From Streptomyces sp. NBC_00335 (GTDB lineage Bacteria > Actinomycetota > Actinomycetes > Streptomycetales > Streptomycetaceae), in assembly GCF_036127095.1 (NCBI RefSeq), contig NZ_CP108006.1:2790001-2854000 (forward strand): a stretch of DNA of 64,000 bases, given 5' to 3'. This document shows positions 31,239-39,390 of this stretch, piece by piece. The translations under genes were made by a program, and so were the position numbers. The notes below the pieces were generated by a model. It was not told the DNA's origin, ran no database searches, and saw only the letters and a list, made by a program, of their open reading frames with translations. Within the stretch, counting starts at the first letter, position 1. Every line of letters begins with the position of its first letter.

Positions 31239-32183
31239 CTACGCCGCCAGCAGCGGGCTCGCGTTGCGCGCCAGCCAGGCGCGGTAGGGGGGAGTGCCCA
31301 GGGCCGCTTCGCGGTAGGCCGCGCGGAGGTCCTCGTACACCCCCTCGGACACCTGCGCGTGCACCCCGGGGCGGGTCGCGAGGAGGAGGCGTACGGCGAG
31401 CGGGTCGCCCGAGAGCGGCCGGATCGCCATGTCCTCGCGCGGTCCTGAGGTGGGTTGGCAGGGGGCGACGGCCTCGCCGGAGACGATCAGCGAGGCGGCC
31501 GTGTGGTAATCGGCGTGCAGCAGCTGCGGGTCGAGGCCGGCGCCCGCGAGGACCCGGCGCAGGCCGTCCCACTCCCCGTCCACCGACGGGTCCACGGTCC
31601 ACCGGTCGGCGGCGAGGTCGCGCAGCTCCACCACCGAGCGGGCCGCCGCAGGATGGTCCCGGGACATCGACACGAACTGCGGCTCGCGCTCCATCAGGAC
31701 CCGTAACTCCAGTCCGGGAGGCACCCGCAGCGGGCTGCCCTCCACCTCGTGCACGAAGGCCACGTCGAGCCGGCCCGCGGCCGTCATCCGCAGCAGCGCG
31801 TTGGCGGACACGTCGACCATCAGGTCGGTCTCCGTGTCGGGCAGCCGCCGGTGCAGCCGCCGCAGCCAGCCGGGCAGGGCGCGGCTGGCCGTCGAGCCGA
31901 TCCGCAGCCGGGGCCCCTGGGACAGCGCCCGGGCCTCCGCGACGAGGGCGGCCATCTCGGCCAGGAGCGGCCGCGCCCGCCCGAGTATGGTGCGCCCGAA
32001 GGGAGTCGGCCGGCATCCGGTGCGCTCACGCAGGAACAGTTCCCCGTCCAGGGCGCGTTCGATGCGCCGCAGCTGGGTCGTCAGGGAGGGCTGGCTCACG
32101 CCGAGCTGCCGGGCGGCCTTGTGCAGGCTGCCGGCGTCGGCGATGGCGCACAGGGCGCGCAGGTGCCTGACCTCAAGCTCCAT
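31239..32183 (-). CDS. snpR: LysR-type regulator of the adjacent secreted protease
   Basis: The 314-residue LysR protein has the N-terminal helix-turn-helix (MELEVRHLRALCAIADAGSLHKAARQ shortened here, followed by LGVSQPSLTTQLRRIE) and a substrate-binding-protein-like effector domain with RLRIGSTASRAL. It is divergent from snapalysin, which is the classical snpR/snpA (mprR/prt) arrangement in Streptomyces, where the LysR protein activates the protease gene. The start at 32183 excludes a 43-residue upstream extension that would overlap the operator. Symbol given by context. Confidence 0.82.
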   Translation of the reverse strand: MELEVRHLRALCAIADAGSLHKAARQLGVSQPSLTTQLRRIERALDGELFLRERTGCRPTPFGRTILGRARPLLAEMAALVAEARALSQGPRLRIGSTASRALPGWLRRLHRRLPDTETDLMVDVSANALLRMTAAGRLDVAFVHEVEGSPLRVPPGLELRVLMEREPQFVSMSRDHPAAARSVVELRDLAADRWTVDPSVDGEWDGLRRVLAGAGLDPQLLHADYHTAASLIVSGEAVAPCQPTSGPREDMAIRPLSGDPLAVRLLLATRPGVHAQVSEGVYEDLRAAYREAALGTPPYRAWLARNASPLLAA

Positions 32184-32276
32184 GCCCCGAGAGTAGGCCG
32201 GTGCGAGCCGACCGCACCAGTAACCGGTATCCCCTCGAATCCCGCCATTCTCACGGTAGTTGGGCTTCCGAAATCC

Positions 32277-32301
32277 CCCCGATAGCCCGGCGTTATCGGG
32301 G
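32277..32301. promoter_or_regulatory. LysR-type operator between snpR and snpA
   Basis: CCCCGATA (32277-32284) and TATCGGGG (32294-32301) are perfect 8-bp inverted arms around 9 bp, and the inner TA-N9-TA fits the T-N11-A rule for LysR sites. It lies about 90 bp in front of each gene. Confidence 0.65.
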
Positions 32302-32389
32302 TCTGACATCATCCGCCGCCCCCTCCCGCTCCCGCAGACTCCGGTACCGAACGACCCCCCACAGCACCGGATGAGCAGGAGTCCCCCAC

Positions 32390-33049
32390 ATGCGCCACTC
32401 CCGCAAGACCACTCTGTCCGCCGTCGGCCTCGGCATCGCCGCCGTCCTCGGCGCCGTAGTCCCGGGCACGACCGCCACCGCCTCCGCCGGCGCCGGCAGC
32501 CCGAGCACGTACGCCGCGTACGAGCAGTCGAAGGAGAACCAGGCCGCCAACCGCGCCTTCTTCGAGGCCGTGCAGCGCTCGGTGGCCCAGCAGCGCGCCG
32601 CGACCCCGGGCCTGGCGGCCGTGACCGTCACCTACAACACCCGCAACGCGCCGAGCTTCCGCACCCAGATAGCGCGCTCCACGCAGATCTGGAACAGCTC
32701 GGTGACCAACGTCAAACTGCAGGAGGTGTCCTCGGGCGGGAACTTCGCGTACTACGAGGGCAACGACTCGCGCGGTTCGTACGCGAGCACGAACGGCCAC
32801 GGCCAGGGCTACATCTTCCTGGACTACCGGCAGAACCAGCAGTACAACTCCACCCGCGTGACCTCGCACGAGACCGGCCACGTGCTCGGTCTGCCGGACC
32901 ACTACTCGGGCCCGTGCAGCGAGCTGATGTCCGGCGGCGGCCCCGGCACCTCCTGCCAGAACGCCAACCCGAACTCCGCCGAGCGCTCGCGCGTCAACCA
33001 GCTGTGGGCGAACGGCCTCGTCGCGTCCGGCCTGGACGCGAAGGGCTAG
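32390..33049 (+). CDS. snpA: Snapalysin, secreted small zinc metalloprotease (M7)
   Basis: The 219-residue precursor has a Sec signal peptide (residues 1 to about 33, ending TATASAGA), a propeptide and a mature domain of about 135 residues. The zinc site is [12 protein letters not shown]: His160, His164 and Asp170 as ligands with catalytic Glu161, the aspzincin-like HExxHxxGxxD of family M7. The C-terminal [16 protein letters not shown] holds the Met-turn and a disulfide. The enzyme is exported and cleaves milk proteins and peptides in the medium. The stop codon lies within a CTAG shared with the stop of the gene on the other strand. Confidence 0.95.
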
Positions 33050-34077: not shown

Positions 34078-34677
34078 TCACTGCGGCTTGCGCCACATCG
34101 GCCACATCAGCGGCCCGTCCGGCAGCCGCACCGCCTCGCCCGTGAACTGCCAGCCCAGCCGCTCGTACAGCCCCTTGCTGCGCTCGCTGCTCGCCTCCAG
34201 GTACGCCGGCACGCCCTCGCGGTCGCAGCGCTCCAGCACCGGCCGGATCAGCTCCGTGCCCAGCCCCTCGCCCTGCCGCCCCGGGGCGACCGCGATCATC
34301 AGCAGGTACTCGTGTTCCTCCGCCATCGGGTGCACGGCGCCCGTGAGCCTGCCCACCAGCTCGCACCGCTCGTTGTCCGGGTCGGCCACGGCCCGCATCT
34401 TCGCCGGGACCTCGTCCTCGACGTGTTCGGCGTCCGGATCGCCCGCCGGGATCCGCAGCCACAGCGCCGCCGCCGAACCGTCCGCCGCGTAGTCGATCCG
34501 GCCCTCGGCCAGCGCCACGTCCACGAAGACGCCCAGGAACTTCCCGTGCACCGCGGCCCGGTGCTCCGGGTCCGGGAACACCCAGCTGCTCACCGGATCG
34601 CTGCGGAAGGCCTCGTCGAGCAGCCGCGCCACGGCATCCCGGTCCGACTGACCGGCTTGACGTATCTCCAGCACCAT
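34078..34677 (-). CDS. GNAT family N-acetyltransferase
   Basis: The 199-residue protein begins IRQAGQSDRDAVARLLDEAF and carries the acetyl-CoA loop IAVAPGRQGEGLGTELI (the Q/RxxGxG/A motif), followed by AYLEASSERSKGLYERLGW. This is the Streptomyces GNAT type with an extra mid-domain. The acceptor is unknown. It lies between the DHFR-like gene and the polyprenyl synthase but is separated by over 100 bp from each. Confidence 0.85.
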   Translation of the reverse strand: MVLEIRQAGQSDRDAVARLLDEAFRSDPVSSWVFPDPEHRAAVHGKFLGVFVDVALAEGRIDYAADGSAAALWLRIPAGDPDAEHVEDEVPAKMRAVADPDNERCELVGRLTGAVHPMAEEHEYLLMIAVAPGRQGEGLGTELIRPVLERCDREGVPAYLEASSERSKGLYERLGWQFTGEAVRLPDGPLMWPMWRKPQ

Positions 34678-34815
34678 GGGTCACACCCTTCACTTCACTC
34701 ACGCGTCAACAACCGTGAGCGATCCTAGAGTTGACCCACCGACGCAGAAAGGCCCGTTCCGGCACCGTGCGGTGCCGGAACAGGCCTCCGGGGCTTCCCC
34801 CTCGCCCCTACATGG

Positions 34816-35862
34816 CTACTTCGTACGCCGCGTCACGAACTCCGCCAGCGCCAGCAGTCCGCCCGCCGCCCCGAGGTCCGGGACGGCCCGCGACAGCTGC
34901 TGCACCGCCCGCCCCATCCGGTCGGCGGCATGGGCCTGCGCCCAGTCCCGCCCGCCGGCCCGCTCCACCGCCGCGGCCGCCCTGCCCACGTCGTCCCCGG
35001 TCATGGGGCCCGCGTACAGCGCGGCCAGCTCCTCCCCCGCCGCGGTGCCCGAGGTGAGGGCGGCCACGACCGGGAGGGACTTCTTGCGGGCCAGCAGATC
35101 GGCCCCGGCGGGTTTGCCGGTGTGGCCGGGGTCCCCCCAGATGCCGATCAGGTCGTCGATGAGCTGAAACGCCAGCCCGGCCTCCCGGCCGAAGGCGTCC
35201 ATGGCGTCGACCTCGTCCGGGCCGGCCCCCGCGTACAGCGCGCCGAGCGCGCACGCGCAGCCCAGCAGGGCCCCCGTCTTGGCCGTCGCCATGGTCAGGC
35301 ACTCGTCGAGCGAGACGCTGTGGCGCTGCTCGAAGGCGCAGTCCGCCTGCTGGCCCGCGCACAGTTCGACGATGCAGGCGGCGAGCCTCGCCGAGGCGGC
35401 CGCCGAGGCCGGGTGCGGGTCCTCGGCGAGCAGCCGCAGCGCGAGCGCCATCATGGCGTCGCCCGTGATGATCGCGTCCGACGTGCCGAAGACCGTCCAG
35501 GCCGTCGGCCGGCCGCGCCTGCGCACGTCCTTGTCGATGACGTCGTCGTGCAGCAGCGTGAAGTTGTGCGCCAGCTCCACGGCCACGGCCGGCCGTACGG
35601 CCTCCGCGGCGAACCCGTCCCCGCGCAGGGCCTGCGCGGCGGCGAGCACCAGGGCGGGGCGGATGGCCTTGCCGGCGCTGCCCGCCGCCGGGGTGCCGTC
35701 CTCCCGCTCCCAGCCGAAGTGGTACATCGCCACGTGCCGCATCGAGCCCGGCAGGCTCTCCACGGTCCGGCGCAGTTCCGGGTTGACCGTTTCCCTCGTC
35801 CGCTCCAGCAGGACGGCGGCTTCCTGCCCCTCGCTGGTGGTGATCGCCTCAGTGGTCGACAT
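34816..35862 (-). CDS. Polyprenyl diphosphate synthase, likely encapsulin cargo
   Basis: The 348-residue trans-prenyltransferase has the first Asp-rich motif LLHDDVIDKDVRRRG and a second motif reading QLIDDLIGIWGDPG, DDxxG rather than DDxxD. KAIRPALVLAAAQAL marks the IPP-binding side. The N-terminal 50 residues before the core are moderately charged and include SLPGSMRHVAMYHFGW. The gene follows eshA by 78 bp on the same strand. Polyprenyl transferase is one of the recognised cargo classes of family 2B encapsulins, so its product may be made inside the shell. A long disordered loading tail is not evident, so encapsulation is inference. Chain length of the product is unknown. Confidence 0.85.
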   Translation of the reverse strand: MSTTEAITTSEGQEAAVLLERTRETVNPELRRTVESLPGSMRHVAMYHFGWEREDGTPAAGSAGKAIRPALVLAAAQALRGDGFAAEAVRPAVAVELAHNFTLLHDDVIDKDVRRRGRPTAWTVFGTSDAIITGDAMMALALRLLAEDPHPASAAASARLAACIVELCAGQQADCAFEQRHSVSLDECLTMATAKTGALLGCACALGALYAGAGPDEVDAMDAFGREAGLAFQLIDDLIGIWGDPGHTGKPAGADLLARKKSLPVVAALTSGTAAGEELAALYAGPMTGDDVGRAAAAVERAGGRDWAQAHAADRMGRAVQQLSRAVPDLGAAGGLLALAEFVTRRTK

Positions 35863-35940
35863 GGCGTGTGCGCTCCGTCCCGTCCTGTCCCGTCCTGCCT
35901 CGTGCCCATCGCCCCGGCGTCGGCGCCGGAGCCGGCCGGG

Positions 35941-37347
35941 TCAGCTCCAGCGGGCGATCTCGACGTTCTCCAGGACGCCGAGCGCGTCCGGCACCAGCAC
36001 CGCGGCGGAGAAGTAGGTGGTGACCAGGTAGGAGATGATCGCCTGCTCGCTGATCCCCATGAACCGCACCGAGGTGCTCGGCTCGATCTCGTCCGGGATC
36101 CCGGGCTGGTGCAGGCCGATCACGCCCGACTCGTCCTCGCCGGTGCGCATGCAGAGGATGGAGGTCGTACGGGCGTCGCTGATCGGGATCTTGTTGGACG
36201 GGAACATCGGGACCCCGCGCCAGGACGGCACCCGGTGCCCGCCGATCTCGACCGACTCCGGGTACAGCCCGCGCTTGTTGCACTCGCGCCCGAAGGCGGC
36301 GATGGCCTTGGGGTGCGCCAGGAAGAACTTGGAGCCGCGCCGCATGCTGAGCAGCTGGTCCATGTCGTCGGGGCTGGGCGCGCCGTCGTGGGACTGGATG
36401 CGCTGGTCGTAGTCGGCGTTGTGCAGGAGGCCGAAGTCGCGGTTGTTGAGCATCTCGTGCTCCTGGCGCTCGCGCAGCGCCTCGACCGTGAGCCTGAGCT
36501 GCTGCTCGGTCTGGTTCATCGGCTGGTTGTACAGGTCGGCGACTCGGGTGTGGACGCGCAGAACCGTTTGCGCGATGGAGAGTTCGTACTCGCGCGGCCG
36601 GGCCTCGTAGTCCACGAAGGTGCCCGGCAGCACGGCCTCGCCCTGGTGGCCGGCGGAGAGGTCGATCGCGGCCTCGCCGTACTTGTTGGTGCGCTGCTCC
36701 GGCAGGGCCCGTACGGAATCCAGGTGCGCCCGCAGCGAGTCGACGCGGTCGGCGAGGATCTGGAAGTCCTGGCGGGAGAGGACGAGCACGGTGCCGGCGG
36801 TGGCGGCGCGGGCGGTGTACTCCCAGATGGCCTCCTCGTCGACGAGGGAGCCCTCGCCGAAGAAGGCCCCGTCGGCGACGGTCTGCAGGACGGCGTCATC
36901 GCCGTAGGGACCGGGGCCGATCTGGTCGATGCGCCCGTGGGCGAGCAGGAACACCTTGTCGGCGGGGCTGCCGAAGGAGGTGAGCTCCTGGCCCGGCTCG
37001 AAGTCGATCTGGTGGCAGCGCGCGGCGAGTTCGGCCAGCGCGTCGGGGTCGTCGTAGTCGCGCAGAACCGGGAGCTCCCCCAGCTCCGCCGGAATCACCT
37101 GGACCTGCGTGCCGGTCTTGATGAACTCCACGATGCCGTTGCCGACGGAGTAGCTCAGCCGCCGGTTGACGCGGTACGTGCCGCCCTGGACGGACACCCA
37201 GGGGAGCATCTTCAGGAGCCACCGCGAGGTGATCTCCTGCATCTGCGGCGCGGACTTGGTCGTGGTTGCCAAGTTCCGCGCGGCCGATGTCCCCAGACTG
37301 CGCTGCGGTGCCTGGGTCTCGGATTCGGAACCTGCCTGGACCGACAT
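35941..37347 (-). CDS. eshA: EshA, family 2B encapsulin shell protein with cyclic-nucleotide-binding domain
   Basis: The 468-residue protein matches EshA. Residues 1-100 start the HK97-like shell fold ([20 protein letters not shown]). Residues about 100-215 form an inserted cNMP-binding domain with [11 protein letters not shown] (Glu165) and [10 protein letters not shown] (Arg180) at the phosphate cassette. The remainder is the rest of the shell fold, with [40 protein letters not shown] and ending NVEIARWS. Family 2B encapsulins self-assemble into nanocompartments. EshA is known to affect antibiotic production and development in Streptomyces. It is followed by a polyprenyl synthase and is divergent from nsrR. 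Confidence 0.93.
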
Positions 37348-37533
37348 GAATTTTCCCTTCGATCACTCCATGAATCTGCGGAAGGAGCCTTTCAGCACGG
37401 ACCGTGGTCGGACCATTACACAAAAGGGTGGGATTACTCCGTCCGTGGCTGGGCACTCTCTTGAGCTCAACTCCCGCCCCACGGGACACTTGGACCCCAC
37501 TCGTTTCAGCCATCCGCACGGCGGCCGCCGTTT

Positions 37534-37558
37534 AAATTTGCACGGTGGATGCAAGTTT
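37534..37558. promoter_or_regulatory. Candidate NsrR operator
   Basis: AAATTTGCA (37534-37542) and TGCAAGTTT (37550-37558) are inverted with one mismatch around a 7-bp centre. The arrangement is compatible with the 11-1-11 symmetry of Streptomyces NsrR sites, centred on 37546. It is 15 bp upstream of the nsrR ATG and about 185 bp from the eshA start on the other side. Confidence 0.6.
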
Positions 37559-37572
37559 TCTACGCTGGACCC

Positions 37573-38025
37573 ATGCGGCTGACCCGATTCACCGACCTCG
37601 CCCTGCGCGTCCTGATGCGTCTGGCCGTCGCGGAGGCGGACCTCCCGACCACCCGCGACGTGGCGGCGACCATGGAGGTCCCGTACACCCACACCGCGAA
37701 AGTGGTCGCCAAGCTGCAGCATCTCGGTCTGGTCGAAGCCCGCCGCGGACGCGGCGGCGGCCTCACCCTGACCCCCGCCGGGCGCGCCGCCTCGGTGGGC
37801 GGGGTGGTCCGCGAGCTGGAGGGCGCCGGCGACGTCGTGGACTGCGACGGCGCCGTCGCATGCCCACTGCGGAGCGCGTGCATCCTGCGCGGGGCGCTCC
37901 GCCGGGCCCAGGAGGCCTTCTTCGCCTCCCTGGACCCGCTGACGGTGAACGACCTGGTCGCAGCCCCGACCGGGCCGCTCCTGCTGGGCATTTCGGGCGG
38001 ATCGACCGGGGCCGGAAGACCCTGA
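37573..38025 (+). CDS. nsrR: Rrf2-family nitric oxide sensor NsrR
   Basis: The 150-residue protein has the Rrf2 winged helix (MRLTRFTDLALRVLMRLAV; TTRDVAATMEVPYTHTAKV) and three cysteines Cys91, Cys97 and Cys103 in CDGAVACPLRSAC, plus Asp8. NsrR of S. coelicolor holds a [4Fe-4S] cluster with three such cysteines in C-x5-C-x5-C spacing and an Asp at position 8, so the match is exact in layout. Nitric oxide destroys the cluster and releases DNA. It represses itself and the flavohaemoglobin gene that follows. Confidence 0.92.
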   Translation: MRLTRFTDLALRVLMRLAVAEADLPTTRDVAATMEVPYTHTAKVVAKLQHLGLVEARRGRGGGLTLTPAGRAASVGGVVRELEGAGDVVDCDGAVACPLRSACILRGALRRAQEAFFASLDPLTVNDLVAAPTGPLLLGISGGSTGAGRP

Positions 38026-38193: not shown

Positions 38194-39390
38194 ATGCTTT
38201 CCGAGAAGTCGACCGCGACCGTACGAGCCACCCTGCCCGCCGTGGGCGCGGCCATCGGCGACATCACGGAGCTCTTCTACGGGAAGCTCTTCGCGGCCCA
38301 CCCCGAACTGATCCGCGACCTCTTCAACCGCGGCAACCAGAACGCCGGCCTGCAGAAGCAGGCCCTCGCCGGCTCCATCGCCGCCTTCGCCACTCACCTC
38401 GTGGACCACCCGGACGCCCGCCCCGACGTCATGCTGGGCCGGATAGCCCACAAGCACGCCTCGCTCGGCGTCACCCGCGAGCAGTACCCGATCGTCCACA
38501 AGCACCTCTTCGAGGCCATCGTGGAGATCCTCGGCGAAGCCGTCACCCCCGAGGTCGCCGAAGCCTGGGACGAGGTCTACTGGCTCATGGCGAACGCCCT
38601 CATCACCATCGAGGAACGCCTCTACGCCGAGCAGCAGGTCCTCGCCGGCGACGTCTGGCGCACCTGGACGGTCGCCGCCCGCGTCGAGGAGACCGCGGAC
38701 TGCACCACCTTCCACCTCACCCCCGCCGACAACGCCCCGGCGCCGTCGTTCAAGCCGGGCCAGTACGTCTCCGTCCAGGTCGAACTGGCCGACGGCGCAC
38801 GCCAGATCCGCCAGTACAGCCTCTCCAGCGCCCCCGGCTCCCCCACCCGCTCCATCACCGTCAAGCGGGTCCACGGCCCCGCCGCCACCGGCCCCGACGG
38901 CGAGGTCTCCAACCACCTCCACGCCCACATCCGCACCGGCGACACCCTGCGCGTCTCCATCCCCTACGGCGACCTGGTCCTCCAGGACACCACCGCGCCC
39001 GTCATCCTCGCCTCGGCGGGCATCGGCTGCACCCCGATGCTCTCCATGCTGGAACACCTCGCCGACACCGCCCACACCGCCCCGGTCACCGTCCTGCACG
39101 CCGACCGCTCCCCCGCCGACCACGCCCTGCGCACCGGCCACCGCGACCTCACCGCCAAACTCCCCGACGCCGCCGCCCACTTCTGGTACGAAGCCGACGC
39201 CGAGCCCGGCGACCACGAAGGCCGCCTCGACCTCGCCGCCATCCCCGTCGCCCCCGGCACCAAGGCCTACCTCTGCGGCCCCCTCCCCTTCATGCGGGCG
39301 GCCCGCGAACAGCTCATCACCAAGGGCGTCGCCCCCGCCGACATCCACTACGAGGTCTTCGGCCCCGACCTCTGGCTCGCCTCGGCGTGA
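38194..39390 (+). CDS. hmp: Flavohaemoglobin, nitric oxide dioxygenase
   Basis: The 398-residue protein starts behind CGAGGAG. The globin domain covers residues 1-140 with proximal His in HKHASLGVTREQYPIVHKHL and the usual ELFYGKLFAAHPEL. The FAD domain (RQYSLSSAP) and NAD domain (ILASAGIGCTPMLSML; YLCGPLPFMRA) follow. It oxidises NO to nitrate with O2 and NADH. An AT-rich AAATACGCATCT stretch about 45 bp upstream is a weak NsrR half site. The gene follows nsrR in the same direction across 168 bp. Confidence 0.95.
   Translation: MLSEKSTATVRATLPAVGAAIGDITELFYGKLFAAHPELIRDLFNRGNQNAGLQKQALAGSIAAFATHLVDHPDARPDVMLGRIAHKHASLGVTREQYPIVHKHLFEAIVEILGEAVTPEVAEAWDEVYWLMANALITIEERLYAEQQVLAGDVWRTWTVAARVEETADCTTFHLTPADNAPAPSFKPGQYVSVQVELADGARQIRQYSLSSAPGSPTRSITVKRVHGPAATGPDGEVSNHLHAHIRTGDTLRVSIPYGDLVLQDTTAPVILASAGIGCTPMLSMLEHLADTAHTAPVTVLHADRSPADHALRTGHRDLTAKLPDAAAHFWYEADAEPGDHEGRLDLAAIPVAPGTKAYLCGPLPFMRAAREQLITKGVAPADIHYEVFGPDLWLASA

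Follow-up and report, generated by a model that had tools for sequence, protein, structure and literature searches.

The closest described relatives of the locus studied here are the PT operons, in which a family 2B encapsulin shell gene is paired with a polyprenyl transferase gene. Andreas and Giessen (2021; PMC8346489) describe a class of 900 such operons, and a polyprenyl diphosphate synthase is reported as the commonest neighbour of 2b shells (PMC8049743). The linked polyprenyl transferases are described in PMC8346489 as having disordered N-terminal domains of 50-100 residues, and the passages on these enzymes give no targeting motif. PT operons with two shell genes exist as well, and a two-component 2B shell, Enc1/Enc2, is described for S. 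lydicus (PDB 9bix and 9bje; PMC12407261).

The window, by which we mean the whole 64-kb stretch of DNA that was analysed, contains an operon that belongs to this published 2B PT class. It shares with the described operons (PMC8346489; NF041163 plus NF041169) the shell family, the synthase family, the gene order and an actinobacterial host, and with the S. lydicus system the family 2B shell, although it has a single shell gene where S. lydicus has a two-component shell. Since the pairing is already known and widespread, finding another such locus is in itself unremarkable. Its value lies in a strongly linked cargo candidate without the tail that has been proposed to load such enzymes. Furthermore, the compact two-gene unit is convenient for co-purification of shell and synthase, and the analysis corrects two recurring assumptions, namely that every such shell is EshA and that the cNMP-fold domain senses cyclic nucleotides.

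The shell-synthase operon

The operon and its 3' end comprise three features:

35941-37347, minus strand: family 2B encapsulin shell gene, 468 amino acids (NF041163, PF19307, PF00027)
34816-35862, minus strand: trans-polyprenyl diphosphate synthase gene, candidate cargo, 348 amino acids (NF041169, PF00348, DDVID, DDLIG)
34749-34788, minus strand: 18-pair hairpin, found by RNA folding, 3' of the synthase gene and ahead of an acetyltransferase gene

The synthase gene lies downstream of the shell gene on the same strand, across a gap of 78 bp (35863-35940). Judged by its sequence, the shell gene product is a predicted family 2B encapsulin shell protein: it scores 762.6 bits against the family 2B shell model NF041163 (cut-off 400), its HK97-type part matches PF19307 at residues 216-466 (459 bits), and the cNMP fold PF00027 is matched above its cut-off at residues 115-199, N-terminal to PF19307 and within an insertion of approximately residues 100-215.

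The synthase scores 486.7 bits against NF041169 ("family 2 encapsulin cargo protein polyprenyl transferase"; cut-off 450) and 364.1 bits, below the cut-off of 475, against NF045549, the model for the geranylgeranyl diphosphate synthase IdsB. PF00348 covers residues 62-284, and the protein has the all-helical fold and the two Asp-rich motifs of a trans-isoprenyl diphosphate synthase, DDVID at residues 106-110 and DDLIG at 236-240. Among its best 120 relatives, the named entries mostly carry the NCBI name of encapsulin cargo polyprenyl transferase, a few are named polyprenyl synthetase, and the metagenome entries are nameless. Phe101 stands five residues ahead of the first Asp motif, a placement that we take, under the chain-length rule, to indicate a C20 product; on this residue, the enzyme is probably a short-chain trans-polyprenyl diphosphate synthase of the GGPP type (C20).

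The region 34720-34815 folds at -55.2 kcal/mol (z -4.2), with none of 200 shuffles as good, and the hairpin within it is the probable transcription stop of the two-gene unit. It was not among the results of a pattern scan for terminators, and a promoter scan of 34600-37700 found none. Beyond the hairpin lies the acetyltransferase gene (34078-34677), while upstream and divergent from the operon are a gene for an Rrf2-type regulator (37549-38025) and then a flavohemoprotein gene (38194-39390). The best informative match of the Rrf2 family regulator is NsrR, with a score below the NsrR cut-off. Across 80 named relative loci, a relative of the acetyltransferase occurs somewhere in the locus in 54, of the Rrf2 regulator in 34 and of the flavohemoprotein in 35; as the flanks vary in this manner, the operon unit is shell plus synthase. 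Further along the window are a snapalysin protease gene (32390-33049, plus strand) and a divergent LysR-like ORF (31239-32312, minus strand), the latter assigned as a regulator by eye.

These results bear out much of a first-pass annotation made from the sequence, which had placed the two ORFs on one strand, 78 bp apart, described an HK97-type shell with an inserted cNMP-fold domain (upheld by NF041163, PF19307 and PF00027), read the second Asp motif as DDLIG and seen no terpene cyclase beside the operon; indeed, none of the seven PF19086 matches of the genome falls within the 64-kb window.

Linkage of shell and synthase across genomes

Shells and synthases were located by profile matches in 71 Streptomyces genomes, with distances taken from profile match to profile match. 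Each of the 52 synthases above the NF041169 cut-off is the immediate downstream neighbour of a 2B shell in the same orientation, at a distance of 51-472 nt, and one further linked synthase (G045) reaches the cut-off only through adding up the scores of its same-frame pieces. Conversely, none of the 75 paralogues of 395-425 bits in the same genomes is within 20 kb of a 2B shell. Between 425 and 450 bits, one of five synthases is linked (that of G045), and below 395 bits, among the at least 18 matches listed, four are 7-15 kb from a shell and none is adjacent. In a larger survey, 227 of 295 genomes hold an over-cut-off synthase, adjacency having been checked in the 71 genomes above.

At the named loci, the synthase follows the shell in 76 of 80, or in 76 of the 78 where the downstream sequence suffices (at L124 and L162 the contig ends right after the shell); these loci share species with those of the genome survey, so that the two linkage counts are not independent. 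Outside Streptomyces, the sample consisted of 13 of the 22 over-cut-off genomes together with 10 scoring below the cut-off. Ten of these 13 over-cut-off synthases are directly behind a shell, and the remaining three (L281, L287 and L288) have no shell within 4 kb, with full shells elsewhere in two of the three genomes (G409 and G308) and a partial match only in the third (G310). No below-cut-off synthase is linked (0/10), and G339, G332, G305 and G363 contain no shell match at all. The linkage of shell and synthase thus exceeds chance, and its tightness, combined with the NF041163 and NF041169 scores, supports the earlier pairing of this shell with the published polyprenyl cargo class.

Two shell genes in a row, as for a two-component shell, precede the synthase in five of the ten linked loci outside Streptomyces (L283, L284, L262, L267 and L269). 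At G000:C1:2077131-2079095, in the same genome as the window, an unlinked synthase paralogue (428 bits against NF041169) stands directly before a terpene cyclase match, with no shell.

The PT-linked shells form a single clade with an SH-aLRT of 100, a value also obtained in a FastTree run, from whose tree five incomplete shell pieces (L234, L235 twice, L236 and L237) were removed and the incomplete L233 is absent too. The window shell belongs to this clade and is probably of the eshB (SCO5249) type. In the 71 genomes, the clade comprises 58 full-length shells, of which 53 are followed by a synthase; four of the remaining five adjoin terpene cyclase genes, and one (L222) adjoins neither. Two of the four (L206 and L229) lie beside 2-MIB-synthase-like genes and a methyltransferase gene, and the other two (L196 and the divergent L207) beside what are presumably geosmin-synthase-like genes, the cyclases having been identified by BLAST comparison with this genome's 2-MIB synthase. 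The cyclase neighbours at L196, L206, L207 and L229 have the appearance of a cargo exchange within the PT-linked clade. Clade shells with neither a synthase nor a recognised cyclase adjacent were found at L129, L132 and L222, the first two with several kb of sequence; at L129, an acetyltransferase gene is directly behind the shell, and the synthase gene is therefore missing there.

These last three loci would fit a shell that acts as a regulatory or structural particle needing no cargo, with the synthase as an opportunistic neighbour, as would the developmental regulation of eshB in S. coelicolor described in PMC3878966. We consider such a particle improbable, given that a synthase is behind 53 of the 58 full-length clade shells and that four of the other five adjoin a terpene cyclase, which is another cargo class. 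The reading that we favour, with fair confidence, is that of a two-gene operon in which an eshB-type 2B shell is accompanied by a dedicated short-chain synthase as its most likely cargo. Neighbourhood does not prove encapsulation, which from the present evidence we would call reasonably probable.

The synthase leader and possible routes of loading

Two further features bear on how the synthase might be loaded:

35818-35862, minus strand: synthase leader, residues 1-15, ending in G-x-E-A (residues 12-15), delimited by the start-codon limit and by conservation
37255-37299, minus strand: shell N-terminal arm, residues 17-31, which has LGTSAAR in common with the terpene-cyclase cargo tag

The sole start codon after the shell stop leaves 15 residues ahead of the conserved core, and since the intergenic gap holds no in-frame start codon further upstream, the absence of a long tail is firm. 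In the AlphaFold2 model, pLDDT is below 50 at residues 1-9 only, a helix runs over residues 4-35 and the remainder is folded. The remark in the first-pass annotation that no long loading tail is evident was therefore correct, both the start-codon limit and the model pointing to a leader no longer than 15 residues. PDB 3nf2, a polyprenyl synthetase of S. coelicolor and the closest solved structure among the matches listed, shows approximately 44% identity with the window synthase, is akin in sequence to the unlinked paralogues and aligns from model residue 14; hence, residues 14-61, which Pfam leaves unannotated, are ordinary fold. In this the locus differs from the PT operons as PMC8346489 describes them: the stretch of 50-100 disordered N-terminal residues reported there, a trait that lies outside the NCBI model, is absent from the window synthase and from most of the linked relatives examined.

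Start-codon limits keep the leader below 50 residues in 41 of 53 linked Streptomyces synthases and at 20 or fewer in 16 of the 53, while at the named loci the leader cannot exceed 18 residues in 30 of 74. These upper limits are independent of the Shine-Dalgarno rule by which best-guess starts were assigned. With best-guess starts, the leader has at most 17 residues in 30 of the 53 linked synthases and 23-111 in the other 23, so longer tails do occur; in the 10 linked synthases outside Streptomyces it has 9-26. Tail length was considered as a mark of linkage and discarded, as the best-guess ranges of linked synthases (8-63, plus one of 111) and unlinked paralogues (12-62) overlap.

It had also been proposed to compare the N-terminal 50 residues with those of shell-unlinked homologues, identity of the two counting against the cargo idea. 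The objection holds in part: residues 16-62 are ordinary folded core that the unlinked paralogues have too, and L281, L287 and L288, the over-cut-off homologues with no shell close by, have leaders that resemble the linked ones. In 122 distinct linked synthases (129 before identical sequences were dropped), the end of the leader is conserved, with G12 in 84%, E14 in 87% and A15 in 98%, and the rest of it is variable; in 27 of the 79 unlinked paralogues of at least 395 bits, the same three positions reach 4%, 4% and 30%. The G-x-E-A stretch may be a short signal, or may simply reflect common descent.

A tag of the cyclase type was sought as well. Neither GLGT nor LGT-x-A occurs in any of the 122 distinct linked synthases, whereas GLGT is present in 26 of 47 cyclase-like ORFs at 73 loci with other shells, in several as GPTGLGTSAAR. 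Cyclases of the latter type were seen at L193, L197, L201 and L206, that of L206 carrying GPAGLGTSAARL. The shell N-terminal arm is present in 74 of 76 named shells and in 60 of 85 others, and it is possible that the cyclase tag GPTGLGTSAAR mimics this arm through the common LGTSAAR. In the literature searched, LGTSAAR appears as a cargo motif in PMC8346489 alone, whose passages on the motif draw no comparison with the shell. A coding pattern for GPTGLGT gave no match in the genome of the window; the pattern was too strict, as the form found in this genome's 2-MIB synthase is GPSGLGT. The luminal loop, named as a possible cargo-loading site in PMC12407261, differs slightly between PT-linked and 2-MIB shells.

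The proposed loading tail is missing here, and in 41 of the 53 linked relatives there is no room for a long one, from which it follows either that loading differs for this cargo class or that the synthase is not cargo. On the second view, the synthase would be an operon partner only, which stays in the cytoplasm or outside the shell and supplies the real cargo enzyme. This would agree with the lack of a tail, the absence of a cyclase-type tag from all 122 linked synthases, linked leaders no longer than those of unlinked paralogues, the similar leaders of shell-less over-cut-off homologues, and the ability of clade shells to lose the synthase or adjoin cyclases. We nevertheless think it unlikely: linkage in 52 of 52 against 0 of 75, together with G-x-E-A in linked synthases only, suggests a dedicated relation, and the two-gene unit holds no other candidate cargo gene.

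If the synthase is cargo, as we favour, it would be produced alongside the shell and end up within it. Unlike the terpene cyclases of related shells, it has no long disordered tail and no GPTGLGTSAAR-type tag, so any loading must rely on the short leader (no more than 15 residues), on the surface of the folded body or on capture while the shell assembles. The product would be a short linear isoprenoid, probably C20, destined for a pathway that is not encoded at the locus. Rather speculatively, 2B shells might use two loading codes, an arm-copying tag in the cyclase tail and, for the tail-less synthase, the G-x-E-A leader or the folded surface, with the shells of one clade swapping synthase and cyclase cargo.

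The cNMP-fold domain and the second shell of the genome

One stretch of the shell gene is central to the question of nucleotide binding:

36801-36836, minus strand: shell codons 171-182 in the phosphate-cassette region; Trp175 takes the place of the Arg of binding domains

When the shell is aligned by HMMER with cGMP-dependent protein kinase 1, the phosphate-cassette Arg is opposite Trp175, and the phosphate-binding Arg of a functional cyclic-nucleotide-binding domain is accordingly lacking in the window shell. All 133 clade shells have Trp at this position, as do 16 of 19 2-MIB shells and, among the other shells, 46 of 56. The first-pass annotation had described Glu165 and Arg180 as in place. 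Both letters are indeed present, but Arg180 is not the cyclic-phosphate Arg, whose position is held by Trp175; it is conserved in 132 of the 133 clade shells, yet five residues past that position. Glu165 is not conserved, the 133 clade shells having D in 72, E in 60 and a gap in one. Furthermore, a 2025 paper (PMC12407261) reports, in a passage citing a preprint, that the family 2B domain binds no cyclic nucleotide. The domain is thus predicted not to read cyclic nucleotides through the usual Arg, and a non-nucleotide ligand is possible.

These findings bear directly on the earlier suggestion that isoprenoid chains are built in an EshA-type, nucleotide-gated compartment. The match to PF00027 above its cut-off and the Glu at residue 165 speak for gating. 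Set against them are Trp at the phosphate-Arg position of every clade shell, the lack of cyclic-nucleotide binding reported in PMC12407261 and the presence of a different eshA-type locus in the genome, and we regard the suggestion as very improbable.

At that locus, genes for a 2-MIB synthase and a GPP C-methyltransferase come after a second 2B shell gene (G000:C1:781282-782631). Against PDB 9bhu, which we take to be the S. griseus shell, the second shell scores 872.8 bits and the window shell 674.5. The window shell was considered as an orthologue of EshA, the 2-MIB-associated shell; this was ruled out by the separate clades and by the eshA-type locus elsewhere, and the name EshA that the shell had been given is rejected on the same grounds. 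The likeness to the EshA/2-MIB encapsulin (9bhu) consists of the shell fold, the cNMP-fold insertion and the Trp at the phosphate-Arg position. The two differ in shell clade and in partner: the cargo of EshA is a 2-MIB synthase, long-tailed and tagged with GPSGLGT, whereas the partner in the window is a tail-less synthase.

In S. coelicolor, according to PMC3878966, eshB is SCO5249 and eshA, its paralogue, is SCO7699, and SCO5250 is listed in PMC7494193 as an isoprenoid-pathway gene that is 4.4-fold up on glucose. As judged by gene descriptions and gene order rather than by the S. coelicolor sequence, the window operon is most likely the counterpart of SCO5249-SCO5250.
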